Shown here: piece after piece, positions 1 to 13,339 of the stretch | Numbering within the stretch: the stretch's first letter is position 1 | How the letters are laid out: every line of letters starts with the position of its first letter | Assembly (NCBI GenBank): GCA_011390455.1 | Contig: JAABSI010000082.1 | Location: forward strand, 1-13,339 | Length of the DNA: 13,339 bases | Reading direction: 5' to 3' | Source of the DNA: Trueperaceae bacterium | GTDB taxonomy: Bacteria; Deinococcota; Deinococci; Deinococcales; Trueperaceae | Program-made: the position numbers and the translations under genes | The notes under the pieces: model-generated | Told to the model about the DNA's origin: nothing | Seen by the model: the letters and a program-made list of their open reading frames with translations, nothing else | Databases searched by the model: none

Positions 1-300
1 CAGGACCTCGGCCGTGGCGCCTTCGGCGGTGCGGCCGTCGGGGAAGGCCATCGTCCACGACCAGTGCACGAGCGCCAAGTCGCCCGCCTCGAACGCCACC
101 GACTCGTTCATGCGGATGGAGGCGCCGGTGTTCAGGTACCCCTGGAGGACGTTGTGGATCGCGTCCGATCCGGCGTGGGCCCCGCGCGCGTTGGTGAAGA
201 CGGCGTCGGGCTCGTACAGCTCCATCAGCCCCTCGAGGTCGCCTGCGGCGAACAGCGTCTCGAAGGCCTTGCCTGCATCGGCGGGTCGACGTACGTCCAT
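1..300 (-). CDS. NTF2/SnoaL-like protein, C-terminus beyond window
   Basis: The first 100 codons of a minus-strand gene are visible; the rest lies off the left edge. The start is ATG at 300, with GAGAGGA about 7 nt upstream. The N-terminal text (FETLFAAGDLEGLMELYEP, then DAVFTNARG and a GSDAI turn) is the typical opening helix and strand of SnoaL-like / DUF4440 proteins of the NTF2 cone fold, which run to about 120-150 residues. Such proteins act as small isomerases, cyclases or ligand-binding domains; nothing here fixes the substrate. The HWSW segment near residue 75 lies on a core strand. It is the first gene left of the leftmost tRNA remnant, so it may belong to older chromosomal or element DNA. 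Confidence 0.8.
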   Translation of the reverse strand, partial: MDVRRPADAGKAFETLFAAGDLEGLMELYEPDAVFTNARGAHAGSDAIHNVLQGYLNTGASIRMNESVAFEAGDLALVHWSWTMAFPDGRTAEGATAEVL

Positions 301-461
301 GGTCGCGTCCTCTCGCCCGGACCCACCGGGCTTGGAGGGCGCCTGGCGGAGGGTGGGCATCGAAATGCGGTTTTATGGCATGAGGGGGGGCGAGGACGCG
401 GGTTCGGGGGCTGTGCACCGGCGCTGAGCGGCCGTCTCGAGCGTCGCGGGGGGGTTCGCTG

Positions 462-506
462 TGGTGCGGCCGAGAGCGCTCGCACTCCTGGCCTTCCGGT
501 CCGTAG
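462..506 (-). repeat. Degenerate tRNA 3'-half remnant, copy 1
   Basis: Read on the minus strand this runs from an anticodon loop (CTACGGA, 506-500) through an anticodon-stem 3' strand, a 5-nt variable loop, a T-arm and an acceptor 3' strand to A plus CCA (464-462). The anticodon loop is identical to copies 3 and 4. The T-loop has decayed to TGCGAGC and the T-stem no longer pairs fully. The terminator beside it is reduced to a G-rich half (about 447-456) followed by TTC. The 5' half of the tRNA is absent. Seen in the sequence: fragment and order. Inferred: an old attachment-site scar. Confidence 0.6.
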
Positions 507-558
507 TCCACTGTTCGCGTATGGGCCGAGGCCCGACGGGGCCAAGGTCGAGGTGGGT

Positions 559-1152
559 CTACGTGATTGCGCCGACGAACCGGAGGAGTGGCCCCAACTC
601 CCCCCGGTCGGCGGCGCGTAGAGCGGCGATGTAGACCACGCGGCGCTCGCCGTCCGCCTGCAAGTCGAACCCGCTCGCCCACGCCACCGGTGGATGGCGG
701 TAGACGGTGTCGAGCAAGACGTCGGCGGCGATGCGGGCATGGCGACCGTTCCCGTTCACGAAGGGGTGGATCTGGACCATGCGGTGGTGGAACCGAGCTG
801 CGGCCTCGAGCGGGGCGTACACCTCGTGTTCCGACCAGGACCGCGCGTCGAGCAGCATCGAACGCAGCGCCGGACCGATGGAGAACGGGTCGACGCCGAT
901 GTTCTTCTCGGTACGGCGATACGTGCCCGCCCATGCCCAAACCTCGCCGAAGAGGCGTCGGTGGAGGGTTCGGATGACCCCATCGTCGAACACGTCCAGC
1001 CGGCGCTGCCGCGAGACCCACGCAAGGCCCTGTTCGATGTTGGCCTGTTCGAGCTCGTCGAGCTCGCCGCGGGTGGTGACGTGGCGTAGCTTCAGGCCCT
1101 GGGCCTCGTCCGGATCGAGCGGCGTCGCGCCGTCGGGTTCGACGAACGTCAC
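559..1152 (-). CDS. Mobile mystery protein B, Fic/DOC-domain protein
   Basis: This 197-aa protein matches the family called mobile mystery protein B: an opening FVEPDGATPLDPDEAQGL, a WAWAGTYRRTEKNIG segment (73-86) and a Fic motif HPFVNGNGRHAR at 129-140. Fic proteins usually transfer AMP or another phosphate-containing group to hydroxyl side chains, using the motif His as base. Here the usual Asp/Glu metal ligand is Asn (HPFVN). The chosen start is GTG at 1152, which overlaps the TGA of the upstream HTH gene in a GTGA arrangement and fits the family N-terminus; the frame stays open much further upstream, but that is only high-GC read-through. The pair is co-transcribed and probably translationally coupled. 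In this family the two genes nearly always occur together and often on mobile DNA. Target unknown. Confidence 0.9.
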   Translation of the reverse strand: MTFVEPDGATPLDPDEAQGLKLRHVTTRGELDELEQANIEQGLAWVSRQRRLDVFDDGVIRTLHRRLFGEVWAWAGTYRRTEKNIGVDPFSIGPALRSMLLDARSWSEHEVYAPLEAAARFHHRMVQIHPFVNGNGRHARIAADVLLDTVYRHPPVAWASGFDLQADGERRVVYIAALRAADRGELGPLLRFVGAIT

Positions 1153-1613
1153 GGCATTCGCCAGAAGTCCGGTGGTACCTCGCGCGCCAGTTCCTCGGCG
1201 AGATCCTCGATCCGCTGCGCGATCCGAGCGTTCGGGAGGGACTGGCTCTCGAGCGCCATATGCCCGCTTGCTCGGCGCACGAGGTCGTCGGCCTTGCGCA
1301 CGGCGTGAGCGCGGATCACGTCGCCGACGCTTCCTTCCGGGACGACGGCGTACACGAAGCGTCCACCCATGGCTTCGGCGAGCTTCTGCATCTGCTTCAG
1401 GGTGATGGCGCCGTCGCGTTCGTTGCGTTCTGCCTGGTAGACCGCGCTGCGGCTGACGTCCATACGAGCAGCGACCTCTGCTCCGGACATGCCTAGGGCC
1501 GTTCGCAGCGTAACGAGCCAACCTTCGGGCGGGCGTTGGACCGCTGCGAACTGCTGAGCCGCGCGGTCTACGAGCCGGACGTATTGGTTCCGGACCGTGC
1601 GTCGAATGCTCAT
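1149..1613 (-). CDS. Mobile mystery protein A, HTH regulator
   Basis: This 154-aa protein has a Cro/C1-type helix-turn-helix at about 33-86, with recognition region VAARMDVSRSAVYQAERNE. It is followed by the family segment MQKLAEAMGGRFVYAVVP, and a basic N-terminus (MSIRRTVRNQYVRLVDRA) precedes it. Length and layout match mobile mystery protein A, the constant partner of the Fic protein encoded just downstream with a 4-base overlap. The start ATG at 1613 has GAGGTG 9 nt upstream. A near-consensus promoter and inverted repeats lie immediately upstream, so autoregulation is likely. Toxin-antitoxin-like behaviour is plausible from the layout (regulator first, Fic second) but has not been established for the family as far as I know. 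Confidence 0.9.
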   Translation of the reverse strand: MSIRRTVRNQYVRLVDRAAQQFAAVQRPPEGWLVTLRTALGMSGAEVAARMDVSRSAVYQAERNERDGAITLKQMQKLAEAMGGRFVYAVVPEGSVGDVIRAHAVRKADDLVRRASGHMALESQSLPNARIAQRIEDLAEELAREVPPDFWRMP

Positions 1614-1626
1614 TGCCTATCACCTC

Positions 1627-1653
1627 ATATGCAAACTGCGTCGATTCGCATAT
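1627..1653. promoter_or_regulatory. Inverted repeat, candidate operator of the HTH/Fic pair
   Basis: Arms ATATGCAAA (1627-1635) and TTCGCATAT (1645-1653) are complementary at 8 of 9 positions, with a 9-bp spacer. The site covers the expected transcription start of the pair and lies 14-40 bp upstream of the ATG. A second, outer inverted repeat, TGCCTATCA (1614-1622) and TGATAGGCA (1691-1699), is a perfect 9-bp match enclosing both the operator and the promoter. Binding by the HTH protein is inferred. Confidence 0.55.
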
Positions 1654-1656
1654 CAA

Positions 1657-1685
1657 ATGATAGACAAGAGTTATGAAGTTGTCAA
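1657..1685 (-). promoter_or_regulatory. Sigma-70-type promoter of the HTH/Fic pair
   Basis: On the minus strand there is a consensus TTGACA (1685-1680), a 17-bp spacer and TATCAT (1662-1657). Transcription would start near 1650, about 37 nt before the ATG. This is much more AT-rich and consensus-like than the surrounding DNA, as is common for imported genes that must be expressed in varied hosts. Confidence 0.75.
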
Positions 1686-1763
1686 GGTATTGATAGGCAC
1701 CGAGATGTCGTGCGCCCCGTCGCGCGTCGATGGTCCACGACGGCCCGGAGGCCGAAGAGAGAA

Positions 1764-1786
1764 GAACCCCGTCAGAGACGGGGTTC
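1764..1786 (-). terminator. Hairpin terminator attached to tRNA remnant 2
   Basis: A perfect 10-bp stem (GAACCCCGTC / GACGGGGTTC) with an AGA loop lies 4 nt beyond the CCA of the remnant. On the minus strand it is followed by a pyrimidine-rich run. It looks like the original tRNA gene terminator carried along with the fragment, and it now lies just after the acetyltransferase gene. Confidence 0.6.
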
Positions 1787-1790
1787 GCTG

Positions 1791-1835
1791 TGGTGCAGCC
1801 GAGAAGACTCGAACTCCTGACGTTCCGGTCCGCCC
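1791..1835 (-). repeat. tRNA 3'-half remnant, copy 2
   Basis: On the minus strand the order is a partly decayed anticodon loop, CCGGA stem strand, ACGTC variable loop, T-arm AGGAG-TTCGAGT-CTTCT (pairs fully with one G-U), acceptor CGGCTGC, A and CCA (1793-1791). The acceptor and anticodon stem differ from copies 3 and 4 (CGGGCGC, TCAGA), so this copy may derive from another tRNA or a diverged paralogue. There is no 5' half. It abuts the stop codon of the acetyltransferase (1836). Confidence 0.65.
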
Positions 1836-2414
1836 TCAGCTGCCACCCTTCGGCCGCGGCGAGGCAGCCCACTCGTCCCGCAGCTGCGACATCAGGATCG
1901 AGTCCGAGAAGCCCCCTCGATGGCGGCGCGCGTGCCGCAACACGCCCTCGGTGACGAAGCCGGCCTTGAGGTAGGTCTTCTGAGCACGCGGGTTGTGCGT
2001 GTACACCTTGAGCCAGATGCGCTCGAGAGGCAGCTCGCCGAAGCCGAAGTCGACGAGGGCGTTCAGCGCCTCGGTGCCGTAGCCCTGGCCCCACAGCTCC
2101 TTGTCGCCGATGAACATGCTGAGCTCGGCGCTCCCGTTGACCTGGTCCATGTGCCAAAGCACGGCGGTGCCGATGAAGTCGTCCTCGCCCGCGCGGCAGA
2201 TGGTGAAGTAGAAGGCGTCCGAGCCGTGCTGGACGCTGATCTGCTCGAACCAGCGGCGGAGGTTGGTCTCGCTCATCGGGTGCGGGAAGCCGGCCAGGGA
2301 CGCGGTGTCGCGATCGGTGCAGGCGCGCCGGTACGCTTCGAGATCGCGCTCCTCGATGGGGCGGAGCCAGATCCGCTCGCCTTGGAGCATGGGGACGTAG
2401 TGCGCATCGGGCAT
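1836..2414 (-). CDS. GNAT family N-acetyltransferase (RimJ/RimL-like)
   Basis: A 192-aa GNAT protein, the usual length for RimJ/RimL-like acetyltransferases, which move an acetyl group from acetyl-CoA to an N-terminal or small-molecule amine. It begins with GERIWLRPIEERDLEAY (12-28) and carries the acetyl-CoA pyrophosphate loop WGQGYGTEA (108-116). It ends with the motif-B segment NPRAQKTYLKAGF (141-153) and a GVLRHARRHRGGFSDS tail strand. The start is ATG at 2414, with GAGGAGG 6 nt upstream, an excellent ribosome site. Substrate is unknown; ribosomal protein, antibiotic or metabolite are all possible. It is the sole gene between tRNA remnants 2 and 3, so it forms a one-gene cargo module, and its stop touches remnant 2. 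Confidence 0.92.
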   Translation of the reverse strand: MPDAHYVPMLQGERIWLRPIEERDLEAYRRACTDRDTASLAGFPHPMSETNLRRWFEQISVQHGSDAFYFTICRAGEDDFIGTAVLWHMDQVNGSAELSMFIGDKELWGQGYGTEALNALVDFGFGELPLERIWLKVYTHNPRAQKTYLKAGFVTEGVLRHARRHRGGFSDSILMSQLRDEWAASPRPKGGS

Positions 2415-2500
2415 GGGCGTCCTCCTCGGACTTTGTGATCGAGGCGGGCAGCATAGCCTGGCCTCAGCACCGCGGCGGGCAACGAGGGGCCGCAACGAAC

Positions 2501-2523
2501 GAACCCCGCCGACGGCGGGGTTC
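2501..2523 (-). terminator. Hairpin terminator attached to tRNA remnant 3
   Basis: A 10-bp perfect stem (GAACCCCGCC / GGCGGGGTTC) with a GAC loop, 4 nt beyond the CCA of remnant 3. Relative to copies 2 and 4 one stem pair has changed on both sides (T-A to C-G), so pairing is preserved. Confidence 0.6.
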
Positions 2524-2527
2524 ATCG

Positions 2528-2572
2528 TGGTGCGCCCGAGAAGATTCGAACTCCTGACCTTCTGATCCGTAG
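2528..2572 (-). repeat. tRNA-Arg(ACG) 3'-half remnant, copy 3
   Basis: On the minus strand: anticodon loop CTACGGA with anticodon ACG, stem strand TCAGA, variable loop AGGTC, T-arm AGGAG-TTCGAAT-CTTCT, acceptor CGGGCGC, A73, CCA (2530-2528). All 3' elements are sound. Upstream, the anticodon stem 5' strand should be TCTGA but the sequence reads GCGGA, and no D-arm or acceptor 5' strand follows. It is therefore a precise 3'-half, as expected of an att core, and not a functional tRNA. Confidence 0.75.
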
Positions 2573-3073
2573 TCCGCTTTTGCGTCGGGGACGGGGTTTG
2601 CCGTGGTTGCCTCGTGCTGTCGGGAGTGGCCAGGTGACGAGAGATCTGTCGTTCGAAGGCCTTAGGTGGATGCGACTGGAGACGACTCCTGACGGCGTGA
2701 GTTCGCGCACGTTTCGCACACTCCGAGTGCATTGCAGGGCAATGCAGATGGTGCGCCCGGCCAGTGGGGGCGCCACCACGCGCAGATCCCGGCCCGCTGC
2801 GCAGAGGGCCTGAACGCGTCAACCAAAGTCTTGGCGAGGCAAGTCGCGCGATCGCAGCGCCCCTATAGAAGCCAGCGGTTCAGGCTGCCGGGAGTGCGCC
2901 CGTAACCACCGCGAGCAAAGAGCACACGTAAGGGATATGAAAGCAGGTTGGCGCAACACTGTGTCATCGGGCGCCCGCAAGTGCGCTGCGGCCCGTCCTT
3001 TGCGAGCCGCACACCAACACCACATCTGACCGATGCCGAGCATCATTCGGCTCGGAGGCTGAAGGAGCCAAAC

Positions 3074-3736
3074 GTGAACGACAACAACCGATGCGACCAG
3101 TGTGGTCGCGCTCTGGGCGCCACCAACATGCACACCATTTGCCGCGACTGCCGCAACCAACAGAACCGCAACAGCATCCAGCCGCTCCTTGCACAACCGG
3201 TCCCAACGCAATCAAGGCCAACAGCAGCCCTGCCCCAGCATCGTTACGAGGCCGCCTTCATCCAATCTAGTGGTGACGGCTTCAGTGAGCAGTTCGAGCG
3301 CTTCGACGCGAACGACGGCTACCAACCCAGCTTCCACTGGGTCGCCGCCATCGTGACCTTCCTGGCGCCCCCGCTCTGGTTCGTGCACCGCAAGCTCTAC
3401 GGCTGGGCGCTTGCCTTCTTCCTCGCGGAAGTCGCGACCAGCTTCATCATCCCCGTCACCACAAACGGCAGTGACACCACCGGTTGGGGTTACGCACAAG
3501 GCATCGCGATCGCTATCGCGGGTGGCGCTCTCGCGCACTACGCCTACTGGCAGAAGATGCACAACGCCATCCGCACGGCGAAGGCCCGCTACTCAACGAA
3601 CGACGCGATCCTGCTTGATCTCTCGCGACGCGGTGGCACCAACCTCTACGGCGTACTCCTCATCATCGCGATCTACCTCATCCTCGGAATGGGGCTCGCC
3701 GTCCTCACCGTCCTGGAAGGCTACGGCTGGTTCTAG
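3074..3736 (+). CDS. Zinc-ribbon membrane protein, DUF2628-like
   Basis: A 220-aa protein starting with GTG at 3074, preceded by GGAG 6 nt upstream; a longer frame from 2948 has no ribosome site and no plausible N-terminus. Residues 7-26 form a small zinc ribbon (CDQCG ... CRDC, Cys 7, 10, 23, 26). A polar linker follows to about 85. There are four hydrophobic segments: 87-104 (including FLAPPLWFVHRKLYGWAL), 110-126, 140-159 and 201-217. The W-F-x-x-R-K-x-Y pattern after the first segment resembles the DUF2628 family of inner-membrane proteins of unknown role. The gene is alone on its strand and converges on the large protein gene at 4005. No function is assigned. Confidence 0.8.
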   Translation: MNDNNRCDQCGRALGATNMHTICRDCRNQQNRNSIQPLLAQPVPTQSRPTAALPQHRYEAAFIQSSGDGFSEQFERFDANDGYQPSFHWVAAIVTFLAPPLWFVHRKLYGWALAFFLAEVATSFIIPVTTNGSDTTGWGYAQGIAIAIAGGALAHYAYWQKMHNAIRTAKARYSTNDAILLDLSRRGGTNLYGVLLIIAIYLILGMGLAVLTVLEGYGWF

Positions 3737-4004
3737 CCCACGACCCCGTCACCTCGGGAGATGCTGTGTTGCTCGTCAAGCCCTGGCGGGTGCGACCGAG
3801 GGGAGTGACCCCACTTCCGTGGACGTGCGAGCACGGCCTGGGCTTGATTCGTTCGAGACTACGTCTACAAGCGAGATTACGACTTTAAGAGCGATGCTCT
3901 CTGTTCGAAGCATCGAGGCAAGCGCGCCCCGCATGGATCGCGCCTGATGACGATTTGTGGATGAACGATGTCGGCCACTGTGGGCACGAGCAGGTCGGTA
4001 TGAC

Positions 4005-7000
4005 TCATTGCGACATGAACCCGATGGAGACGACGTTGCCGTAGGTCGAAACGACGTAGATGCCTTCTGGGCGGCGGAACGCTCCGATGTACGCGTTGCT
4101 CTGGGGCTCTCGTTGCCAGCGGATCTCTCGTGATGACGGTTGGAGGTAGATGTCGAAAAGCGCATCAACGAGACTTGAGATCATCGATTCGCCGTCGTAG
4201 GAAACCCCGCACGTGACGACAGCGAATGGGGTTTGAGGGCACTGTAGGTCCGTCAATTCGAGTTCGTTTGCGATGAACGCCACGACAAATCCGGGAGTCG
4301 CCCGAATGCGCTCACCCGGTTGTGGTGCCGGTCGCCCAGAAGAGCTGTTGAACATGCGCTCGCTTGCCGCGGGAGTTGCGGCGGGCCGCGGTGGAGGTGC
4401 CTGCCGCTCCGCGACGGTTGGTGGTGGCGTTGGGGCTGGGGGCGGAGCAAGGGCCTGTCGCTCGGCGTCTGTGTAGCGTTCAAGGTACGTCGAGTGCTCG
4501 GCGTCACCGGAGATCGTGAGGAGCCCCTCGAAGCCCTTGTGGTTTGGCGGGCTCGCGACGATGGTGTACGTGACTTCTGCACCGACGGGCAGTCGGTACG
4601 TTGCGGGTGTCCGCGATGTGTCTTGGCCAGATACGCGAATGGTGGCACCCGTTGGGTCGGAAGTGAAGGTTACGTTTGCGGCCCGCACGAGCTCTTGGCT
4701 CACGCTCGTATCCTCAGCGAACCGCATCGTGTCGCTGCGGCCAAACCACTGATCGTCTGGAGGCTCAATGACGATGACGTAGTCCGTGTCTGCGACGAGT
4801 TCCAGAGTGGTCGGTAGCGCCACGGGCTCTTCCAGGACGCCTGGAATGCGGAGCAGGGCCCCGGGTGCGTTGCTGCCGACTTGGACTTCAATCTGTCGCT
4901 TCTGAACTAGCGACACGACGCTGTCGCTCACCATCCGGACTACGAGCGGGAGGGCAGGAAGGTACCGCGTGGCTGGGTCTGACTGGGCGGAGGCGCTGAG
5001 CTCGGTACCGATGGGCGCGCGAACGTCGACGGTGCCCAGTCCAGAGTGGACATCGCCTCCTTCTTCCTCGACGACGATGACCGCCTCGGGGTCGGTGGAC
5101 GTGAAGCGTGCGGTGGCGAACTCAACTACCGGAATGATGAGGGTGATGTCGCGGACGTTCAGCCTGGCGGCGTCGGCCCCGATTGGCACCAGCGAGATGG
5201 GTACGAGGCCACTCAGTGGGGGAGATTCTGCAATGGCGTACTGGCCCGTTGTTGTCTGGGCGCTGATTCCAGTGCGACGGGTCTCGGTTTCGATCGCCGC
5301 TTCGGTCGTACCGACCGCGTCGATACCGAGCGCGGAGAGGGTCGCATCGTCAGCTTGGCTGATCGCGGGCGTTTGGCCGCGGGTTACGGACAGCTGGTTG
5401 CTTGTTATCAGGAGTGCCTGCACGGAACTGGAGGTTGCGTCAAACGTGCACTCGTAGGTCACGTCAAGGTCACGATCGTTGACGGTGACCTCGAGAGGGC
5501 CTGTGCGCGTGACCATCCCAGTGCCTTGAGCGAAGTCGGTTACCACACCAGTCCTACCGAAGAACCCGGTTGGATAGGCGATGGCACTTAGGGGAAAGAG
5601 AGTGTCGAAGAACGTGGCGACCGTTTCGTCGCACGCTGGCTCTGCATCGCGTACTGCGGTCCGGCGTTGCACGTCCCCTGCGGACGTCGAGACGCGTGAG
5701 CTCGACCCTGGAATGTGCAGAACAGCGTCCGTGTCAATCGAGCCGCGCCACAGCACGCCGGTGAGGGAAGACACGGTCGTGGTGGCGTTCTCGGTCACGT
5801 ACGCCTGGAGCAAGGGTGTTTCGAAGTCGCGACCATCGAGCGAGAGCTGAGCACCGCTATGGTTGACGACGCTCAGCGCGTGTTTCGGTTCCAGATTCAC
5901 TTCGACGATCGTCGCGGGCGCTGCGAATAGAACGCCGTTGCTGACCACGAAATTGGCATTAGTGTCGTCAAGGCGACCCGGCGTGGAGTGTGTGATGTCC
6001 ACGACGTTGGTTCCGTCGCGCAATCCAATGATCGCGGGAAGCTGACGTGGTGAGGGCCCGTCGTTGATCGTTGCAAGCAGCGAGCTTGGTGTCGAAGCGT
6101 TGCTCCGTGCAGCCACTGCGACGTTGAAGACCGCTGCGCCGGGTGTGGGCTCTCCATGGTGGAAGGGCGTTACCTGATGATCGACCACAAGCGTCGTTGA
6201 GGTGTCGAGCAACGCATCGCCTTGAACGACGAGCGCTATGCCCGCTTCGTGCTCCATGACGGCTTCGAAGGCGACGATCAGGCGCCCGTCGGATGACACG
6301 AGGCGTGCCGGATTGTTCGGTAGGGGGACACTGCCGTCGTCGTTGATGCCCATCCATTGACCGTCGTTGAATCGCACGGCGCGAAACGCCGAGCCTGGCG
6401 GCGAGAGAAACCGAAGGCAGTTGCTTGGCCCACAGCGTTCTGCGGGCGGAAGCTCAGGCGACCGCGGCATCGATGCAGGGGCCTGTGCTTGTGCCTCCCC
6501 GACTGAGCCTGAAGGTGTGGTGGATGGCGAACTGGCAGCCCCGTCAACGGAACTGCCTTGCGTGGGGTTCCCAGCGTCGTTGACGTTGGTGGGGGGCGGT
6601 TGGATCAAAGCCAAGAGCGAGATGACGCCAACGACGGAACCAATCGTGAGCAACGGAACCCTATAGGTGTGGAGACGATCGCCAACGGAACTCGACTTCT
6701 GGAGGAACCTACGCCTCTCGAGCAGGAGGCCGAGAGCCGTCAATAGGAGCCCGGTCGCCAGCCATGCGCTCGTCAGGTCCAGGCGGCCCGAGAGCAATGT
6801 GGCCGAAAGGAGTGCCGCGACTGCAACGAACACCCAGGAATCGGTGCGGTGTGGTCCAGTGCGTCTTGGTGCTTTGGCGGCGCGACGCGGTTGGTTCGTC
6901 GACTTTTGCAAGGGACTCCTGGTCGCGGCGTCACCGCGAGGTTCGGTAGGCTCGAGCGCAGGTGGCTGATCGACTCCTCCGACGCTTGCAACGGTGGGAC

Positions 7001-7256
7001 CAAAGAGGTCTGCGATGGGCACCGGTGGTGCCGGCACTTCGGCGCGGAGTGTTCTGAGGCGTTTCCGGTAGCGTTTGGCAGCCACCAGGTCGAAGAACGC
7101 TTGATCGTCTGTGTCGCGCAACCGCCGCCGTGTGCTCCGGTTCTTGGCTTGCTGAAAACCCAAGCTCTTGATCTCGGCTGTGTGCAGAGCGTCCTCGAGC
7201 GTCTCAGCGTACTCGTGTACGTGCTTACGGCGCTGAAAGGCAGATAGGGCCGTCAC
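4005..7256 (-). CDS. Large membrane-anchored protein with PEGA-like repeats, function unknown
   Basis: A protein of about 1083 aa that I do not recognise as a whole. The preferred start is GTG at 7256, with AGAGGAAG 5 nt upstream; a TTG at 7337 in the same frame would add 27 basic residues. Layout from GTG: a charged, probably helical cytoplasmic part (1-140); three hydrophobic segments (about 141-157, 162-180, 200-218) with a basic loop between the second and third, placing the rest outside; and a Ser/Thr/Pro linker. A long beta-rich region with paired cysteines (CGPSNC near 275) follows. Near the end are two PEGA-like units, about 775-860 and 861-930 (TFTSDPTGATIRVSG). A Pro-rich stretch and a C-terminal domain of about 100 aa with two cysteines (CPQTPFAVVTC) complete it. 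PEGA domains occur on exported or surface proteins. It could be a surface or envelope protein; role unknown. The 268 bp beyond its 3' end (3737-4004) hold only a weak 7-bp hairpin (3892-3915). Confidence 0.8.
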   Translation of the reverse strand: MTALSAFQRRKHVHEYAETLEDALHTAEIKSLGFQQAKNRSTRRRLRDTDDQAFFDLVAAKRYRKRLRTLRAEVPAPPVPIADLFGPTVASVGGVDQPPALEPTEPRGDAATRSPLQKSTNQPRRAAKAPRRTGPHRTDSWVFVAVAALLSATLLSGRLDLTSAWLATGLLLTALGLLLERRRFLQKSSSVGDRLHTYRVPLLTIGSVVGVISLLALIQPPPTNVNDAGNPTQGSSVDGAASSPSTTPSGSVGEAQAQAPASMPRSPELPPAERCGPSNCLRFLSPPGSAFRAVRFNDGQWMGINDDGSVPLPNNPARLVSSDGRLIVAFEAVMEHEAGIALVVQGDALLDTSTTLVVDHQVTPFHHGEPTPGAAVFNVAVAARSNASTPSSLLATINDGPSPRQLPAIIGLRDGTNVVDITHSTPGRLDDTNANFVVSNGVLFAAPATIVEVNLEPKHALSVVNHSGAQLSLDGRDFETPLLQAYVTENATTTVSSLTGVLWRGSIDTDAVLHIPGSSSRVSTSAGDVQRRTAVRDAEPACDETVATFFDTLFPLSAIAYPTGFFGRTGVVTDFAQGTGMVTRTGPLEVTVNDRDLDVTYECTFDATSSSVQALLITSNQLSVTRGQTPAISQADDATLSALGIDAVGTTEAAIETETRRTGISAQTTTGQYAIAESPPLSGLVPISLVPIGADAARLNVRDITLIIPVVEFATARFTSTDPEAVIVVEEEGGDVHSGLGTVDVRAPIGTELSASAQSDPATRYLPALPLVVRMVSDSVVSLVQKRQIEVQVGSNAPGALLRIPGVLEEPVALPTTLELVADTDYVIVIEPPDDQWFGRSDTMRFAEDTSVSQELVRAANVTFTSDPTGATIRVSGQDTSRTPATYRLPVGAEVTYTIVASPPNHKGFEGLLTISGDAEHSTYLERYTDAERQALAPPPAPTPPPTVAERQAPPPRPAATPAASERMFNSSSGRPAPQPGERIRATPGFVVAFIANELELTDLQCPQTPFAVVTCGVSYDGESMISSLVDALFDIYLQPSSREIRWQREPQSNAYIGAFRRPEGIYVVSTYGNVVSIGFMSQ

Positions 7257-7337
7257 TAGTTCTTCCTCTCGACGCCAGCGCGTTTTCTTGGCCCAGGGGT
7301 GCAAGGTGGTCTTCTGGGCCCGTGCTGAGCGAACCAA

Positions 7338-7712
7338 GCTCGGGTGCGAGCATTGTCCAACTTCAGCATGAAACGCCCAGGTCTCGGTAGAGGCTCTCCT
7401 CTCCTGCGCCTAGAGTTCATAAATCTGGTCGCACCGAATGGCGGCTTACGGTCGCGGCTCATACACGAACATCGGGGAGGAACCGCACTGGGCTTCGTAG
7501 AGGTACTGCTCTCAAGCGGCGTGCCTACTCACCGCGTCTCGATAGCGCGCTGCAGCCCTGATCGCTCCTTATCGAGTGCCCGTTCGAACTCGCGGGTCGG
7601 GGAAAGGCAGGGGGACGCAGACGTTGTTGTGGGCCGGTGCCAGAGCCCCTGTACGGATTGGTGCGAATGCAGTTGAGTGCCGCAGCGAGTACCGGTGCCG
7701 CCGGCGCCTGGG
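7338..7712. other. Intergenic stretch with no recognised gene
   Basis: Between the divergent large protein gene and the TetR promoter I see no convincing gene, tRNA remnant or repeat. Open frames exist on both strands but lack ribosome sites and have random arginine-rich translations. The promoter of the large gene must lie here; I could not pick out a clear pair of boxes. Confidence 0.5.
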
Positions 7713-7740
7713 TTGACATGCGGAAAACATGCGTTATCCT
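7713..7740 (+). promoter_or_regulatory. Promoter of the TetR-flavoprotein operon
   Basis: TTGACA (7713-7718), a 16-bp spacer and TATCCT (7735-7740) form a good sigma-70-type promoter. Transcription would start near 7747, about 44 nt before the TetR start codon. CATGCG occurs twice in the spacer region (7718-7723 and 7728-7733). Confidence 0.65.
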
Positions 7741-7749
7741 CAGCGGGAA

Positions 7750-7761
7750 GGACAAATGTCC
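7750..7761. promoter_or_regulatory. Candidate TetR operator
   Basis: GGACA-AA-TGTCC, with perfect 5-bp arms around 2 bp, sits just after the predicted transcription start of the operon. TetR-family repressors usually bind such short palindromes over their own promoter. Binding by the adjacent regulator is inferred. Confidence 0.45.
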
Positions 7762-7790
7762 TACCCCGTATGGGATGCGGAGGCGTGCGC

Positions 7791-8462
7791 ATGGCGAGAG
7801 CCGGCGAACGGGAAGATGCCTTGCTCGACGCAGTCGCCGATTACCTCGTGGCGAATGGCATCGCTGAGTGCACGTTCCGTTCGCTCGCACAGGCGCTCGA
7901 TACCAGCACCTACACGTTCGTCTACCACTTCGGTACGAAGGCTCAGCTGATCGATGCTGCGCTTCGGCATGTGAGCCGTCGCGAGATCGAAGAGGTTCGC
8001 TCGTGGATGGCGGCCGACGAGGGCGTCGCGGATGCTGGTCTTGGGCCGGAAGCAGGCGGCGTTGGTCTCGTCATGCGGCGGTACTGGAGTTGGTGCCTGC
8101 GGCCGTCGCATCGGCAGGTGATGCGGCTCTTCTTCGAGGCGGGAAACCTTGCTCAACGGCAGCCGGAGCTCTACCCGCCGGTAGTACGCGACATCCTTCT
8201 GGAGGGCCTCGAGCTCGAGCGCGAGATCGTCCGATCGACCGGTGCGGAGGCCGCGACCGTGGACGCGATGGCGACGCTCGTCAGCGGCGCCATCTGGGGT
8301 TTGCAGCACGACCTGTTGATGACGGGCGACGCGGAGCGCACGACCCGTGCGCTCGATGCGGTCGCGACGATGATCGACCACTATCTGGCGATGGGTGATC
8401 CCTTCGCCCACGCACCCGCGAACGACCACGCCGATTCCTCTCTGCGAAAGGAGCACGTATGA
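7791..8462 (+). CDS. TetR/AcrR-family transcriptional regulator
   Basis: A 223-aa regulator of normal family length. The start ATG at 7791 has GGAGG 7 nt upstream. The N-terminal domain (about 1-60) carries the TetR helix-turn-helix: ALLDAVADYLVANGIAECTFR, then SLAQALDTSTYTFVYHFGTKAQLIDAAL, in which YxYHFGTKxxL is the family signature (here VYHFGTKAQL). The C-terminal ligand domain includes a LVSGAIWGLQHDLLMTGD segment. Its stop overlaps the next start (ATGA at 8459-8462), so it is cotranscribed and translationally coupled with the flavoprotein. It most likely represses its own operon until the flavoprotein's substrate or a related compound binds; the ligand is unknown. Confidence 0.92.
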   Translation: MARAGEREDALLDAVADYLVANGIAECTFRSLAQALDTSTYTFVYHFGTKAQLIDAALRHVSRREIEEVRSWMAADEGVADAGLGPEAGGVGLVMRRYWSWCLRPSHRQVMRLFFEAGNLAQRQPELYPPVVRDILLEGLELEREIVRSTGAEAATVDAMATLVSGAIWGLQHDLLMTGDAERTTRALDAVATMIDHYLAMGDPFAHAPANDHADSSLRKEHV

Positions 8463-10216
8463 GCAAGCACGACAACGGGCACGACCGCACCCCACGATTC
8501 ACGCGACGGGACTTCCTGAAGACGGTCGGGGGTGGGACGGCCGCGGTGGTGCTCGGCGGCGCCGCCTCCGTCGTGAAGGCCCAGGAGGGTGCTCCGATCA
8601 CGTGGGACCGGGAGACCGATGTGGTGGTCGTCGGGACGGGCGGCGCGGGCGGGGCTGCGGCGGCGGGGGCCTTCGAGGGTGGCGCCGAGGTGATCGTGGT
8701 CGAGAAGTCCGCCGGTTATGGCGGCACCACGGGCAAGTCGGGGGGCACGAGTTGGGTGCCGAACAACGCGCGGATGCGCGATCGTGGCCTCGAGGATCCG
8801 AAGGACGACGCGATGCGGTACATGGCGCGCCTCGCGTACCCGCACCTGTACCGCCAGGATGGCGAGAACCTGGGTCTTCCGGCTTCGACGTACGCGCTCC
8901 TCGAGACCTTCTACGATCGGGGCGCCGAGGCCTTCGAAGCGCTCGAGGCCGCCGGTGCTTTCCGTACGGTGACCAGCATGTCCTGGACGGGCGAGCCGAC
9001 GCCGGATTACTACGCCCACGTCGCCGAGAACCGCGCGCCGCGTGGCCGCGCGATCAACCCGGGTCGTGAGGACGGCACGTCGGGCTTCGGCGCGGACATG
9101 GTGCGGCAGATGCGCGAGTACCTCGTCGGGAAGTCCGTGCCGATCCTGCTCGGGCATCAGGTCACGAAGGTGATCACGAACGCTGGCGGCGACGTCATCG
9201 GCGTGGAGGTGCTCGATCGCGCCGGCAGCCCACTGAACATCCGCACCCGCAAGGGGGTCGTGTTCGCGAGCGGTGGCTTCACGCACAACCCGGACATGGC
9301 CACGAACTACCTGCGCGGACCGATCTTCGGTGGTTGCGCGGTCCCTACCAACCAGGGCGACCTCGTCACGATCTCAGAGGAGCTCGGAGCGAAGCTCGGC
9401 AACATGAACGAGGCCTGGTTGCAGGAGGAGATCCTCGAGGAGGTGCTCGAGTTCGCGAGCGTTCCTTCGGGCGTCTGGTTCCTGACGGGCGACAGCATGG
9501 TCACGGTCAACAAGCACGGCCATCGGGTGTACGACGAGAAGCACGTGTACAACGAGCGCACGCGCGTCCATTACACGTGGGACCCGCAAGCGGGCGAGTA
9601 CCCGAACCTGTTGCTGTTCTACATCTACGACCGTCGCGTCGCCGAGCTCTACCCGGGCGGTGGTGGTCCGGTTCCGCCGGCCGACGCCGAGGCCGCCTAC
9701 GTCATCGAGGGTGCGGACTGGGACGAGCTCGAGCGCAACATCAACGCGCGATTGGCCGACCTCGAGCCGCGGATCGGTCACGTGCGCCTCGCGGGTGACT
9801 TCGGCGCCAACCTGCGCAGCACGGTCGAGCGCTTCAACGGCTTCGCCGAGACCGGTGAGGACCTCGACTTCGCGCGGGGCACGATTCCGATCAGCGCGCA
9901 CTTCCACGGGCCACGTCGCGACGGGAACGACAAGCCGAACCCGTACATGCACCCGCTCTCGGAGTCCGGCCCATACTCGTGCATCATCTTGGCGCCGGGC
10001 ACCCTCGACACGAAGGGTGGTCCGGTGACCACGAGCGACGGTCAGGTCGTCGATGCCCGGGGTCGGCCGATCCGTGGGATGTACGCCGCTGGCAACGCCG
10101 CCGCGTCTCCGTCAGGACAGGCTTACTGGGGCGCGGGCGGCACGCTCGGTCCAGCGTTGACGTTCGGCTGGCTTGCCGGCCAGCATGCGGCTGCCCAGAG
10201 CGACACCGCAGTCTGA
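8459..10216 (+). CDS. Tat-exported FAD-dependent oxidoreductase, 3-ketosteroid-dehydrogenase-like
   Basis: A 585-aa flavoprotein. The N-terminus has a twin-arginine signal, TRRDFLK (15-21), a hydrophobic stretch, and a likely cut after VKA (41), so it folds with FAD and is exported. The FAD-binding fold follows: VVVVGTGGAGGAAAA (55-69) with GxGxxG, an acidic end VVEK (80-83), and GGTTGKSGGTSWVPNN (88-103), which closely resembles 3-ketosteroid dehydrogenases and relatives in the FAD_binding_2 family. The C-terminus has GMYAAGNAAA followed by AYWGAGGTLGPALTFG; Tyr556 and Gly560 occupy the Y-x-x-x-G spacing of the catalytic Tyr and Gly in ketosteroid delta-1-dehydrogenases. AAAGGAG precedes the ATG. 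Substrate is probably a cyclic ketone or enone; fumarate-reductase-like activity cannot be excluded. The downstream cytochrome is a plausible electron acceptor. Confidence 0.9.
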   Translation: MSKHDNGHDRTPRFTRRDFLKTVGGGTAAVVLGGAASVVKAQEGAPITWDRETDVVVVGTGGAGGAAAAGAFEGGAEVIVVEKSAGYGGTTGKSGGTSWVPNNARMRDRGLEDPKDDAMRYMARLAYPHLYRQDGENLGLPASTYALLETFYDRGAEAFEALEAAGAFRTVTSMSWTGEPTPDYYAHVAENRAPRGRAINPGREDGTSGFGADMVRQMREYLVGKSVPILLGHQVTKVITNAGGDVIGVEVLDRAGSPLNIRTRKGVVFASGGFTHNPDMATNYLRGPIFGGCAVPTNQGDLVTISEELGAKLGNMNEAWLQEEILEEVLEFASVPSGVWFLTGDSMVTVNKHGHRVYDEKHVYNERTRVHYTWDPQAGEYPNLLLFYIYDRRVAELYPGGGGPVPPADAEAAYVIEGADWDELERNINARLADLEPRIGHVRLAGDFGANLRSTVERFNGFAETGEDLDFARGTIPISAHFHGPRRDGNDKPNPYMHPLSESGPYSCIILAPGTLDTKGGPVTTSDGQVVDARGRPIRGMYAAGNAAASPSGQAYWGAGGTLGPALTFGWLAGQHAAAQSDTAV

Positions 10217-10238
10217 CGACAAGCACGCCTCTCGTTCG

Positions 10239-10266
10239 CCGCGTGGCGCCGCTTGGCGCCACGCGG
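10239..10266 (+). promoter_or_regulatory. Strong 12-bp hairpin between flavoprotein and cytochrome genes
   Basis: CCGCGTGGCGCC / GGCGCCACGCGG pairs perfectly around a GCTT loop. Only a short TTCTT follows, so it is a poor intrinsic terminator. It ends 17 nt before the cytochrome ATG, just upstream of the GGAAGG ribosome site. It may attenuate transcription or protect the 3' end of the upstream message, lowering or separating expression of the last two genes. Confidence 0.6.
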
Positions 10267-10283
10267 TTCTTGGAAGGATCCAT

Positions 10284-10730
10284 ATGTCGACGTTTCGCCC
10301 CTTCGCCCTCGCAGGCGTCTTCACCCTCCTCGTGTTGGTTGGCGTTGCCTTCTCGGATGGCAGCGACGAGCCGGTCAGCTGCGAGGCGTTCGACCCCTCG
10401 ACCGCCACCGTGAGTTTCGTCAACGACGTCCAGATGGTCTTCGACTTCAATTGCGTCGCGTGCCATCAGACGGGCGCCGAGAACGCGGACCTGAACCTCG
10501 AGTGGGGCATCGCTTACGGTGAACTGGTCGGGGTGGACAGCAGCGAGGGTGATCTCCTGCGGGTTACCCCGGGTGATGTCGAGGCCAGCTACCTGATGCA
10601 CAAGCTTCGCGGCACGCATCTCGAAGTCGGCGGTTCGGGCAGCATCATGCCACTGGGTCTCGGCGCGTTGCCTGAGCGTGAGATCGCTGTGGTCGAGACG
10701 TGGGTTCGCGAATGCGCGCTCGACAACTGA
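10284..10730 (+). CDS. Exported mono-heme c-type cytochrome
   Basis: A 148-aa protein from ATG 10284, with GGAAGG 6 nt upstream. Residues 6-23 are a hydrophobic export signal or anchor. A single heme site CVACH lies at 57-61, and a later SIMPLG (120-125) offers the Met axial ligand in the usual MP context. The closing W140 (VVETWVRECA) matches the C-terminal helix of small planctomycete-type and related cytochrome c domains. Its position, 67 bp after the flavoprotein gene and overlapping the next gene, suggests it takes electrons from the exported flavoprotein. That partnership is inferred. Confidence 0.88.
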   Translation: MSTFRPFALAGVFTLLVLVGVAFSDGSDEPVSCEAFDPSTATVSFVNDVQMVFDFNCVACHQTGAENADLNLEWGIAYGELVGVDSSEGDLLRVTPGDVEASYLMHKLRGTHLEVGGSGSIMPLGLGALPEREIAVVETWVRECALDN

Positions 10731-11383
10731 ACACCGAGCCCGGCCGGTTCGTCCTGACGCACCGCCACTCGGGCAACGCAAGCGGTGCGCCTACGGTGGT
10801 GCTCCTGCACGATCGCTACGGAGATCTCGATGGCCTCGATGCTGTGGCTCGCCCCCTCGAGCCCGACCATCCGGTGATCGCCGTGCGAGCGGCCCGCACG
10901 CAGATTCGCGATCAGTTCGTGCACGGCTACTACTGGTACATCGATCATGGTGCCTGTGAGCCGGAGGCGTCGACGCTTGGCGACGCGCTCGCGCAGATCG
11001 AACTCGGTTTGTTCGAGCACGAGCCGGGTACTGGTGGGGCTGGGTACGTCTTGGTCGGTAAGGGCCAGGGGGCCACGGTCGCGCTGCTGGTCGCACGGGC
11101 TTGGCCGGAACTGGTGCGGTGCGTGGTCGCGTGGGATGGTTGCATCCCCGCTGCTTGGGCATCCGGAGTTGACGTCACCCGTCAGGCCATGGACGGCGTC
11201 AAGGTGCTGCTCGTCTTGAGCGACGATGCGGCAGCCGAGCGCGCCACGCAGGCGCGCGCCGAGCTCGAAGCGGCTGGGGCAGAGGTTCAGTTGCGCCAGG
11301 CCCATTTTCGCGTTGATGAAGGCGACGCCTCGACGTCGTACTCGATCGCGCGGTGGGTGCGGGATGCTTGTGGGCAGAGCTAG
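10712..11383 (+). CDS. Alpha/beta hydrolase-fold protein lacking the nucleophile serine
   Basis: A 223-aa protein related to carboxylesterase / dienelactone-hydrolase-like alpha/beta hydrolases: PTVVLLHDRYGD (27-38) is the first core strand and oxyanion region, and YVLVGKGQGATVALLVAR (112-129) is the nucleophile elbow. The usual GxSxG is GKGQG here (116-120), so Gly118 replaces the catalytic Ser. DVTRQAMDGVKVLLVLSDD (154-172) carries the usual acid position, and His198 is the only late His. The ATG at 10712 overlaps the cytochrome gene by 19 bp; a GTG at 10700 is an alternative start. It is probably translated by coupling. Likely a non-hydrolytic member, perhaps a binding protein or an enzyme with altered chemistry. 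Confidence 0.8.
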   Translation: MRARQLNTEPGRFVLTHRHSGNASGAPTVVLLHDRYGDLDGLDAVARPLEPDHPVIAVRAARTQIRDQFVHGYYWYIDHGACEPEASTLGDALAQIELGLFEHEPGTGGAGYVLVGKGQGATVALLVARAWPELVRCVVAWDGCIPAAWASGVDVTRQAMDGVKVLLVLSDDAAAERATQARAELEAAGAEVQLRQAHFRVDEGDASTSYSIARWVRDACGQS

Positions 11384-11586
11384 GGTGGGAGGTGACCCGC
11401 TCGATCCGCCGACTGCGGCCGGGAGACCGGAGCCTCGAGGGCAGGACGGGCTCCTGGCCCACGATCGGTGCTTGCGCCGCGAAGATGTTTTTGTCGACCC
11501 GCGAGAAACGGCCCCAAACGATTTCGCCCACGTTCCGCGCATGGTCCATTCTATTGAGTGCTTTGAGGTAACTACCAATAACGGAA
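11384..11586. other. Non-coding tail of the 9 kb module
   Basis: From the hydrolase stop to the terminator hairpin of remnant 4 I see no gene, only overlapping frames without ribosome sites. The last 45 bases (about 11542-11586) are distinctly more AT-rich than the rest. This would be the inner right end of the module bounded by remnants 3 and 4. Confidence 0.45.
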
Positions 11587-11609
11587 GAATCCCGTCAGAG
11601 ACGGGGTTC
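11587..11609 (-). terminator. Hairpin terminator attached to tRNA remnant 4
   Basis: GAATCCCGTC / GACGGGGTTC with an AGA loop: a 10-bp stem with one G-U pair, otherwise identical to the hairpin of remnant 2. It lies 4 nt past the CCA of remnant 4. On the plus strand it could also end transcripts of the TetR operon. Confidence 0.6.
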
Positions 11610-11613
11610 ACTG

Positions 11614-11658
11614 TGGTGCGCCCGAGAAGATTCGAACTCCTGACCTCCTGATCCGTAG
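11614..11658 (-). repeat. tRNA-Arg(ACG) 3'-half remnant, copy 4
   Basis: Minus strand: anticodon loop CTACGGA, stem strand TCAGG, variable loop AGGTC, T-arm AGGAG-TTCGAAT-CTTCT, acceptor CGGGCGC, A73 and CCA (11616-11614). It differs from copy 3 at one position. The sequence that should supply the anticodon stem 5' strand is CCGGA, and no D-arm is present, so it is a 3'-half only. Confidence 0.75.
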
Positions 11659-11941
11659 TCCGGGTTTTGCGTCTGGGACAGGGTGTGTGGGGGTTGCGTC
11701 AAGTGGTCGGGAGTGGCCTGGTGACGTGTGCTTGGGCGATTCTTGGGCTCGGTCGGATACGACTGGAGACGACTCCTGGCGGCGCAGGTTCGCGCACGTT
11801 TCGCACACGCCGAAGCCGTTTGGAACGAACGCAAATGGTGAGCCCCGGCAGTAGGCGAGAAACGATAATGGCGGACACGTGACCGTGGGCTGTGTTGCTC
11901 ATTGACGCAGCCACGAGCCTTGCTGAGGCGGTTCGAGTGAG

Positions 11942-11956
11942 GGTAGAGCCTCTACC
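11942..11956 (-). terminator. Short palindrome after the lipoprotein gene
   Basis: GGTAGAG-C-CTCTACC is a perfect 7-bp inverted repeat, realistically a 5-bp stem with a 5-nt loop, 15 nt beyond the lipoprotein stop. No T-run follows on the minus strand. A weak terminator at best. Confidence 0.3.
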
Positions 11957-11970
11957 GGAACGAAGACGCT

Positions 11971-13206
11971 TCAGTCGAACTGGAGATCCGATGCGCAACC
12001 GTGGATGCTCAGATCCGCGTACCTGCTCTGCAGCGGTGGAGCCGTGAACTGTCGGGGAACCTCAGAGAGCGGAATCGTGAAGGCAGCAAGATAATCGAGC
12101 GACTGCAGGCCTCGCGCTTCATCCCACAACGGCCCGACCTCTGCCAGCTCAGGTCGCTGCTCACGAACATACACGGTGTGGTCATACAGCATCGTATTGC
12201 CCGAAGCCATACCAGGATTCACGTACACGAGCACATCTTGAGCAGGATTACCCGCCTGAACTGCGAACGCATCAACATCGAACACCCAAGTATCTGGATC
12301 AGTAGTGATGTTTTCAGGCCCAGGAACTACATGAGCAACCATCTCGTACACCGTTCTGAACCCGATCAGGGACCGGTCGTCAGGATGCACGTCGAGGCGC
12401 AGATCAACAACACCATCGGTGAAGTCTTCTCCCAACTGAGATACACGATCCCGGGCACGAACGCTTGAGACGACCGCTCCGGGAGGGAGAACCGAGCGGA
12501 TCGGAACAGGAGTATTGAACAGGTGACTCTGAAAGAAGAAGTCGCCAGAAGACTGCATCATGCTCGGGAAACTCTCACCGGTAGACAAGAGGCCCTCGCA
12601 GCCCGGAAAACGATCGAGAAACGTGTTCGTCTCGTCAGGATCAGGGTTCCAATCAGGAGGAGCAACATCAAGAATCTTCTCATCGAGAGGGTACACAGTC
12701 ACATCCTCAAGACCACGCTCAGCGAGATACGAACCAGGAAAACTACCGCCGATCCCACGAGCTAGATCGATCCAACCAAGACGACCGGTATCGTAGAACG
12801 ACCGATCAGGATCGAACGCCTGATCCGCACGAGCAGCATCCCACGTACCACGAAGAGCCCACACCGTTGCAGGACCGACGACGGGATAGTCGTCGACCAC
12901 GCGCTGCAACACAACCGGATCGGCACCCTCGTCGACCAGCGAACGCAGCTCGTCGATCATGGAACGCTCGAACCGGGTGAAGCAGTGCTCGCCCTCAACA
13001 TCGTGTTCGTAACGGTTCAGATTGGCATCGTACGCAGCAACATACAGATCCAAACCGACCTCAAGAGCATGATCGACGGCAGTACCCGACACGCAATCAG
13101 GATTGGGCGCAGGATCGGGGGGCGGCGTCACGCCACCACCGTCACCGGGATCGCACGACGAAATGAGTAGAACTGCAGCGAGAACACCAAGACCAACCGG
13201 TCTCAA
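11971..13206 (-). CDS. Lipoprotein of unknown function
   Basis: A 411-aa reading from TTG at 13206. Residues 2-18 look like a lipoprotein signal (LRPVGLGVLAAVLLISSC), with lipobox ISSC and Cys18. A Gly/Pro/Asp-rich tether follows (DPGDGGGVTPPPDPAPNPD), then an acidic soluble domain (about 45-411) containing many D, W and Y residues and a late segment VLVYVNPGMASGN. I recognise no family. The frame has no stop between 13206 and the window edge, so the true start may lie further right; the lipobox favours a start near 13206, but no clear ribosome site supports the TTG. Codon use (many CGT, GGT, GAT) is unlike the GC3-rich flavoprotein gene. It lies beyond remnant 4 and so probably belongs to a different inserted module. 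Confidence 0.75.
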   Translation of the reverse strand: MRPVGLGVLAAVLLISSCDPGDGGGVTPPPDPAPNPDCVSGTAVDHALEVGLDLYVAAYDANLNRYEHDVEGEHCFTRFERSMIDELRSLVDEGADPVVLQRVVDDYPVVGPATVWALRGTWDAARADQAFDPDRSFYDTGRLGWIDLARGIGGSFPGSYLAERGLEDVTVYPLDEKILDVAPPDWNPDPDETNTFLDRFPGCEGLLSTGESFPSMMQSSGDFFFQSHLFNTPVPIRSVLPPGAVVSSVRARDRVSQLGEDFTDGVVDLRLDVHPDDRSLIGFRTVYEMVAHVVPGPENITTDPDTWVFDVDAFAVQAGNPAQDVLVYVNPGMASGNTMLYDHTVYVREQRPELAEVGPLWDEARGLQSLDYLAAFTIPLSEVPRQFTAPPLQSRYADLSIHGCASDLQFD

Positions 13207-13339
13207 ACCACGACGAGCACCACGGTCGAACGCCGCACGAGCGCGACCGACAAGTCCATCGCCATGCCCAGAAGGAACCCGCGGCCCGCTCGGAGAATCC
13301 TTCTCCTTGAGCGCGGGAAGACCGCCAGAACCTCGATCC

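Follow-up and report, generated by a model that had tools for sequence, protein, structure and literature searches.

Probable tandem array of small integrase-less elements behind tRNA-Arg(ACG) in an uncultured member of the Trueperaceae

The DNA considered here comprises 13,339 nucleotides of contig JAABSI010000082.1 (assembly GCA_011390455.1; hereafter the window, meaning the whole stretch analysed), which is closest to uncultured Trueperaceae (Deinococcota). It harbors four 3' halves of tRNA-Arg(ACG), all on the minus strand, at 462-506, 1791-1835, 2528-2572 and 11614-11658 (fragments 1 to 4). In ungapped comparison with the corresponding part of the intact tRNA-Arg(ACG) gene in Trueperaceae S08.Bin137 (genome G002, contig L030), the oldest-looking fragment 1 and the decayed fragment 2 each agree at 36 of 45 positions, fragment 3 at 45 and fragment 4 at 44. 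Fragments 1, 3 and 4 span the anticodon loop CTACGGA through CCA, and fragment 2 is without part of the loop. A 24-nt T-arm probe (up to 3 mismatches) recovers three of the four and misses the most decayed one, fragment 1; it finds no match in 200 dinucleotide shuffles, and ARAGORN calls no tRNA in the window. Hairpin terminators in the form of inverted repeats lie on the same strand behind fragment 2 (1764-1786; 30/31 identical to the terminator stretch of L030), fragment 3 (2500-2523) and fragment 4 (11587-11609; 29/31 to the terminator of S08.Bin137), and the terminator of fragment 1 has decayed (13/31). Fragments 3 and 4 are moreover embedded in a longer repeat, about 279 alignment columns long and 78% identical, which extends mainly upstream of the fragment. 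A Pfam scan of 11 open reading frames of the window yields no integrase or conjugation family. The comparison, the probe and the scan thus bear out what an earlier sequence-only reading had listed, namely four same-strand tRNA 3' halves, three intact hairpins and a decayed one, and no integrase in view.

The fragments delimit four modules. Between fragments 1 and 2 lie, both on the minus strand, a Fic-family gene for mobile mystery protein B (559-1152; TIGR02613, 250.6 bits against a cut-off of 124.4; Pfam Fic) and a helix-turn-helix gene for mobile mystery protein A (1149-1613; TIGR02612, 144.8 bits against 122.6; Pfam HTH_3), which, being adjacent and both above the curated cut-offs, qualify as the mobile mystery A/B pair. 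Going by the TIGR descriptions, this pair is presumably associated with plasmids or islands. The Fic protein (559-1152, minus strand) also matches the PADLOC candidate-defence model PDC-S04 (E 2e-18) and SoFic. A GNAT acetyltransferase (1836-2414, minus strand; Pfam Acetyltransf_3, 100.2 bits) is the only gene of the following 693-bp module, and fragment 2 directly adjoins its stop codon. Element X fills the roughly 9 kb between fragments 3 and 4 (2573-11613) and contains no integrase, and the distal part of element Y (11659-13339, minus strand) extends to the edge of the window. Fragment 3 would represent the right attachment site (attR) of X, with the core CTACGGA at 2566-2572, and fragment 4 the attR of Y, with its core at 11652-11658.

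How far is this array from an intact tRNA? A pattern scan of genome contigs for the T-arm and acceptor end followed by the terminator start returned three contigs from Truepera sp. or Trueperaceae. The best of them, from S08.Bin137 (L008/L030), carries intact tRNA-Ser, tRNA-Ser and tRNA-Arg(ACG) genes and, behind the latter, the terminator and, at +117, an arm repeat; a gene there (L030 14123-14921) shares 95% identity with window 12541-13339. Because the same lipoprotein element start thus follows an intact tRNA-Arg in S08.Bin137, homology places the right edge of the window about 440 bp from a tRNA-Arg(ACG) that would lie just beyond it. The rest of element Y, up to the tRNA, is seen only in L030.

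Two of the window elements retain candidate arm-type repeats. The arm motif TGYGCGAAACGTGYGCGAA consists of two 8-mers 11 bp apart, read in tRNA direction, with distances counted from the anticodon-loop core; the attachment (att) layout would be TGYGCGAAACGTGYGCGAA at -148 or +117 of CTACGGATCAG. All three arms of the window lie on the minus strand: the P arm of element X, TGTGCGAAACGTGCGCGAA, is an exact copy at -148 from the core of fragment 3 (2702-2720), its P' arm carries 2 mismatches at +117 from the core of fragment 4 (11523-11541), and the P arm of element Y is again exact, at -149 from the core of fragment 4 (11789-11807). The fragment of the relative G019 has a P arm at -149 with 3 mismatches, and the +117 partner sits behind the intact tRNA in both G002 (0 mismatches) and G019 (1 mismatch). 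Accordingly, a core with arms on both sides is present in X, in the G019 element and, via G002, in Y, whereas the GNAT and Fic/HTH modules retain tRNA halves only. To call all four fragments scars, as had been done, is therefore too modest for fragments 3 and 4. Among 111 genomes of the class, TGYGCGAAACGTGYGCGAA at up to 1 mismatch occurs in two, both times 117 nt behind tRNA-Arg, and a reversed-pattern control in the same genomes gives none. The P arms of X and Y are identical, with flanks diverged to about 78%. X, Y and the G019 element share their ends only, over about 150-200 nt at the P end and 180-270 nt at the P' end, and their cargo is unrelated.

Other elements at tRNA-Arg display the same layout with different repeat sequences. 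We collected 12 fragments, 11 of which have sufficient upstream DNA for an arm test; an 11-bp tandem repeat (at least 7/8 identical) is found at -124 to -149 in 8 of these 11, and elsewhere in the 700 nt upstream in 4 of 11. Behind the core, the mean period-11 self-identity over 34 tRNA or fragment sites (of 37, three being dropped for short flanks) peaks at +116, with 3.76/8 against a background of 2.31, and the corresponding z of 4.7 is descriptive only, because the sites are related. Periods 10 and 12 produce no such peak at these sites, and some sites, including fragment 3 and the tRNA of G015, lack a period-11 signal. For 14 arm-repeat loci a second arm copy was sought in the collected DNA without a convincing partner end emerging, and exact 21-mer arm scans of viral and genome contigs returned nothing. 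We also considered that the arm might represent codons (CETCA). By our reading, neither the P arm of G019 nor the P' arm of X keeps this frame intact, and we retained the interpretation as a DNA site. GGTAGC-type tandem repeats occur at about +102 behind tRNA-Arg in two further genomes (L064 of G022 and L075 of G023); as the nearest integrase match on the G023 chromosome is more than 400 kb from tRNA-Arg, they suggest further integrase-less elements.

Integrase-bearing elements do occur at this target in relatives. Both G028:C526 and G027:C100 have an integrase gene whose end lies about 90 bp beyond a tRNA-Arg half, separated from it by an arm repeat, and the G028 repeat recurs at -129 of a second fragment; contig G027:C100 breaks off 2 nt beyond its half, which leaves the absence of a 5' half unproven, and G027:C5 has a half that does lack one. 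In G013 an integrase gene ends 1.0 kb behind an intact tRNA-Arg. Overall, 37 of 39 Trueperaceae genomes encode integrases, and the G002 draft is without any. Two leads to a cognate enzyme were rejected. The single viral arm match (IMG/VR, L121) lies in unrelated coding sequence, where the motif is again read as codons. A conceptual 56-aa frame, taken from the conserved L030 P' flank and considered as a hidden integrase remnant, matched well only L030 itself (tblastn, E 1e-34) and the G019 copy (E 1e-5); the next best hit among the 111 class genomes has E 0.008, some match at E up to 1 occurs in 42 of them, and phages and plasmids give none. Elsewhere in G028 (C785; L157, positions 1-330), the 3' half of another tRNA, Ala by our reading, is followed by an integrase gene. 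Because this half is preceded by an arm repeat nearly identical to that of the G028 tRNA-Arg elements, related arms may serve two tRNAs. The IMG/VR contigs L001 and L002 each carry a tRNA-Arg 3' half without a called tRNA, resembling a phage attachment site.

Comparable intervals without integrase recur in the family. At E up to 0.01, 34 of the 39 Trueperaceae genomes match the att query. At the loci examined among the listed matches, five genomes (G003, G015, G019, G027 and G028) show tRNA-Arg 3' halves that lack a 5' half. Three of these hold a complete tRNA-Arg-to-fragment interval without integrase match, their PF00589 matches all lying outside it: 1.8 kb with a TacA1 antitoxin and GNAT pair in G019; 2.2 kb with Phd/YefM and PIN proteins and a TPR protein in G015; and 7.2 kb with ABC-transporter genes, TetR, an AbiEi-type antitoxin and a weakly AbiEii-like protein in G003. 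A different arrangement is seen in G020:C47 (L063, 1496-1877), where two intact tRNA-Arg(ACG) genes stand 305 bp apart with a tRNA-Ser between them.

A second tRNA provides a further case. Among the 111 class genomes, mobile mystery protein B scores above cut-off in G012 only, where its gene lies behind an intact tRNA-Lys(CTT) that is followed by three same-strand tRNA-Lys 3' halves; the third of these matches only partially (36 nt, 86%), and the contig (C225; array at L166 2252-14917) has no integrase match. The three intervals of this array contain AbiE-type genes and an APH-like gene; Phd and PIN; and Gp49/HTH, mobile mystery A/B, TacA1-like and PIN genes, a hydrolase and further genes (these last by reading alone). 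The APH-like phosphotransferase and the hydrolase, which distantly resembles macrolide esterases, both score below curated cut-offs. In G009, 1.1 kb between tRNA-Lys and a tRNA-Lys half (31-nt match) encode a HigB-like toxin and a helix-turn-helix partner. An intact tRNA followed by same-strand 3' halves that bound different cargo is thus found at tRNA-Arg in G019, G015 and G003, at tRNA-Lys in G012 and G009 and, by homology with L030, in the window. Arm repeats are absent from -180 to -90 of every tested tRNA-Lys site; behind these sites, weak repeat matches occur at the G012 tRNA and the G009 fragment, and a clear repeat, TGTGCCTATTATGTGCC, only behind the G030 fragment. There (C27; L191, about 3570-3614) a tRNA-Lys 3' half is followed by the 11-bp tandem repeat, with a partial integrase match about 5 kb further. 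Because arm repeats are mostly unrecognised at tRNA-Lys, these arrays are an independent replicate of fragments and cargo, not of arms.

The cargo itself is frequently of toxin-antitoxin (TA) type. Eleven intervals were counted (four of the window, with Y completed via G002, three at tRNA-Arg in relatives, three of G012 and one of G009), and by our classing, which takes mobile mystery A/B and the AbiE genes of G003 as TA, a TA-like pair occurs in 8 of 11. As G012 was found through one of these TA-like genes, the fairer count leaves it out and is 5 of 8. X, Y and the GNAT module hold no recognised TA. PIN domains number 3 in the 37.8 kb of the 11 modules against 447 in the 123.5 Mb of 39 genomes (3.6 per Mb; Poisson P 4e-4), in a post hoc test of this domain alone, with rounded genome sizes and an estimated length of Y, and with two of the three PINs coming from the G012 array that the search for a TA-like gene had led to. 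Mobile mystery protein B is merely named in the accessible part of PMC4750851.

Element X carries a broader set of genes: a DUF2628 protein (3074-3736, plus strand), a 1110-aa protein (4005-7337, minus strand) and, all on the plus strand, TetR (7677-8462), an FAD oxidoreductase (8459-10216; its closest relatives, at ranks 2-8 of the match list, are 63-87% identical), a 148-aa protein weakly like a c-type cytochrome model (10284-10730) and an esterase-like protein (10700-11383). Element Y encodes a 411-aa protein without Pfam match, lipoprotein-like by our reading (11971-13206, minus strand). A c-di-GMP-II-GAG riboswitch match at 4800-4886 (minus strand) stays below the gathering score (23.8 versus 40 bits, E 0.77) and, lying within a coding region on the same strand, is probably due to chance. 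Ends resembling the inverted repeats of insertion sequences at 7369-7411 and 7487-7519 (plus strand) and 11939-11973 (minus strand) are probably remnants. A 33-nt motif common to X and the G019 element was set aside as an insertion-sequence end, given that in G022 (L124) it adjoins a gene with rve/HTH_21 transposase domains, belonging to what we take to be an IS3 element. On the left, window 1-360 holds a SnoaL-like gene (Pfam SnoaL_2; 93% to G019:C111) and is the probable chromosomal flank of the array. Homology to G019:C111 ends at position 360, and the array probably ends between there and fragment 1. The G+C content is 70.8% in 1-360, 58.5-68.2% in the modules and 75-77% in chromosomal parts of G002 and G019.

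Taken together, the window very probably represents the tRNA-distal part of an array in which small integrase-less elements, similar to the cis-mobilizable elements (CIMEs) of Streptococcus, stand in tandem behind tRNA-Arg(ACG). We envision that a tyrosine integrase recombines each element into the site, presumably from a circular intermediate, the crossover falling at or close to the 7-nt anticodon loop CTACGGA. The incoming element would carry its own tRNA 3' half and terminator, thereby restoring the tRNA and displacing the previous 3' half outward. X, Y and their G019 equivalent may bind an integrase through the arm repeats on both sides without encoding one, and the enzyme might come from another element, acting in trans or, once they have accreted with a prophage or an integrative and conjugative element (ICE) at the same tRNA, in cis. 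Serial integration next to the tRNA with outward displacement, and the insertion order it implies, would fit the position of the core at the anticodon loop, the two-sided repeats, the carried 3' half and terminator, and the preservation of near fragments over far ones: from fragment 4 outward to fragment 1, the identity to the tRNA runs 44, 45, 36 and 36 of 45. Conceivably, TA cargo stabilises such modules; their present-day mobility is unproven. As for the sequence-only reading, its accumulation site next to a tRNA-Arg(ACG) to the right stands by homology with S08.Bin137, and cargo between tRNA-Arg copies does differ among related genomes, as the G003, G015 and G019 intervals illustrate. Its site-specific junctions and modules without integrase hold as well, whereas the proposed mobilisation in trans lacks an integrase with matching arms.

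Several observations weigh against this interpretation. No integrase with this arm class was found in the 111 class genomes or in IMG/VR. The intact tRNA-Arg lies outside the window and is placed by homology with L030. There is no recognisable P arm at fragments 1 and 2 or at the G003 fragment, and no P' arm behind fragment 3; the two outer modules (GNAT and Fic/HTH) are consequently defined by tRNA halves alone. The order of decay is rough, with terminator identities of 29, 21, 30 and 13 of 31 from fragment 4 to fragment 1. The contrast in G+C content of the window, G002 and G019 is not seen in G015 and is reversed in G003. Finally, a clean empty site did not turn up: the gene behind the G019 fragment has no tRNA within the 3.8 kb examined in G017, and the SnoaL-like gene left of fragment 1 has none within the 19 kb examined in G019:C111.

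Such gaps raise the question whether the modules are immobile relics, that is, deletion leftovers of integrase-bearing ICEs, integrative and mobilizable elements (IMEs) or prophages that nothing mobilises now. This would imply the same integration history and a different present function, and we consider it a serious contender with a little under an even chance of being correct. The decayed, armless fragments 1 and 2, the arm copy with 2 mismatches, the missing cognate integrase and the IS3-like inverted-repeat remnants in X and beside the Y arm would all be expected of relics. On the other hand, the P arms of X and Y have stayed identical amid flanks at about 78%, no integrase remnant was detected in the conserved ends, and three unrelated cargoes on one arm class are more easily obtained by exchange than by three separate deletions.

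Explanations that dispense with site-specific integration fare far worse. That the tRNA halves were spread by duplication or homologous recombination is very improbable: the fragments are homologous to one another and to the tRNA, as this would require, but the tRNA identity begins at the anticodon loop in most of them, and the sequence upstream is element-derived, with tandem repeats at a fixed distance. An assembly artefact joining unrelated metagenome contigs at tRNA 3' halves deserves similarly little credence. Contigs do break at or near the same repeat in G027 and some other drafts, yet the G015 tRNA-to-fragment element resides inside a 4.3-Mb contig, the G019, G003, G012 and G009 intervals each lie within a single contig, and L030 independently shows Y adjoining the tRNA. 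Least probable of all is that the modules retain the fragments for transcription termination or as RNA signals, with an incidental mobility history. The GNAT stop codon adjoining fragment 2 and its hairpin, and the hairpins kept at fragments 2-4, would suit such a role, but the hairpins come with the tRNA 3' end itself, fragment 1 bounds a module although its hairpin has decayed, and two-sided arms, the place behind the tRNA and the differing cargo would be left unexplained.

What might an array of CIME-like elements mean for its hosts? A bolder proposal, which we regard as possible but rather doubtful, is that Trueperaceae operate an integron-like capture system on tRNA genes, in which integrase-less cassettes are moved in trans by the integrases of visiting prophages or ICEs. 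Each cassette would then combine a tRNA 3' half and terminator with two arm sites and a small cargo of one to a few genes, mostly a TA pair, and cassettes would accumulate in order behind tRNA-Arg(ACG) and tRNA-Lys(CTT), providing a concrete vehicle for the mobile mystery A/B pair. Integron cassettes can be rich in TA genes. Even short of this proposal, integrase-less islands are usually spotted by a tRNA fragment alone and dismissed as scars, and here arm repeats can be compared between integrase-bearing and integrase-less elements at one tRNA. We suggest that a complete attachment site could be recognised by 11-bp tandem repeats at two places, about 125-150 nt ahead of the core and about 116 nt past its start. 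Arrays rich in TA genes are also relevant to the question of how TA modules, the unexplained mobile mystery pair among them, spread with no vehicle in sight.

How does the array relate to known systems? As far as the accessible parts of the papers cited here go, the closest counterparts are the Streptococcus CIMEs (PMC5704250, PMC7563491), which are bounded by att sites, lack integration and transfer genes, stand in tandem at the 3' end of the target gene and measure 1.2-13 kb, with gene-free microCIMEs also described; 215 CIMEs at tRNA-Lys CTT of S. agalactiae are cited in the same papers. The window elements are likewise without integration or transfer genes (for the tRNA-proximal part of Y as judged from G002). 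They differ in that no ICE or IME neighbour of this arm class is known (descent from an ICE or IME would be one candidate origin), in that one arm class accompanies three unrelated cargoes, and in that TA pairs are common. The ssrA islands of Dehalococcoides (PMC3146451) are also in tandem and bounded by repeats of an RNA gene 3' end, 15 of them without integration module, but involve transfer-messenger RNA as target, a serine recombinase and reductive dehalogenase cargo. In Methylopumilus fGI-2 (PMC10872708), the last 20 nt of tRNA-Lys(CTT) recur between modules of 330 bp to 42 kb, whose cargo is mostly hypothetical; arm sites are not mentioned in the accessible text. Additive islands have been reported in Alteromonas (PMC5217437).

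Tycheposons and helper-dependent elements (PMC11389934, PMC10872708) resemble the modules in their tRNA-associated cargo and in the need of some for a helper, but those described span 4-200 kb and carry a tyrosine recombinase, which for tycheposons is part of the definition (PMC10872708) and of which the window contains none; satellites use phage particles. Clusters of attC sites lacking integron-integrases (CALINs; PMC11389934) are similarly arrays of small modules that depend on an integrase elsewhere, with the distinction that the present site reads as a tRNA core flanked by arm repeats rather than as attC. In the literature searched (titles and abstract starts, subscription journals mostly uncovered), we found no description of integrase-less TA modules stacked at a tRNA, nor of Trueperaceae arrays, and a query combining Trueperaceae, integrase and tRNA returned one Rubrobacter genome paper. 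The array is of a known kind, real and well preserved, and its att sites are unusually legible; what sets it apart is the small size of its modules (0.7-2 kb), of which some have both arm sites, and the frequent TA cargo that includes the mobile mystery A/B pair.

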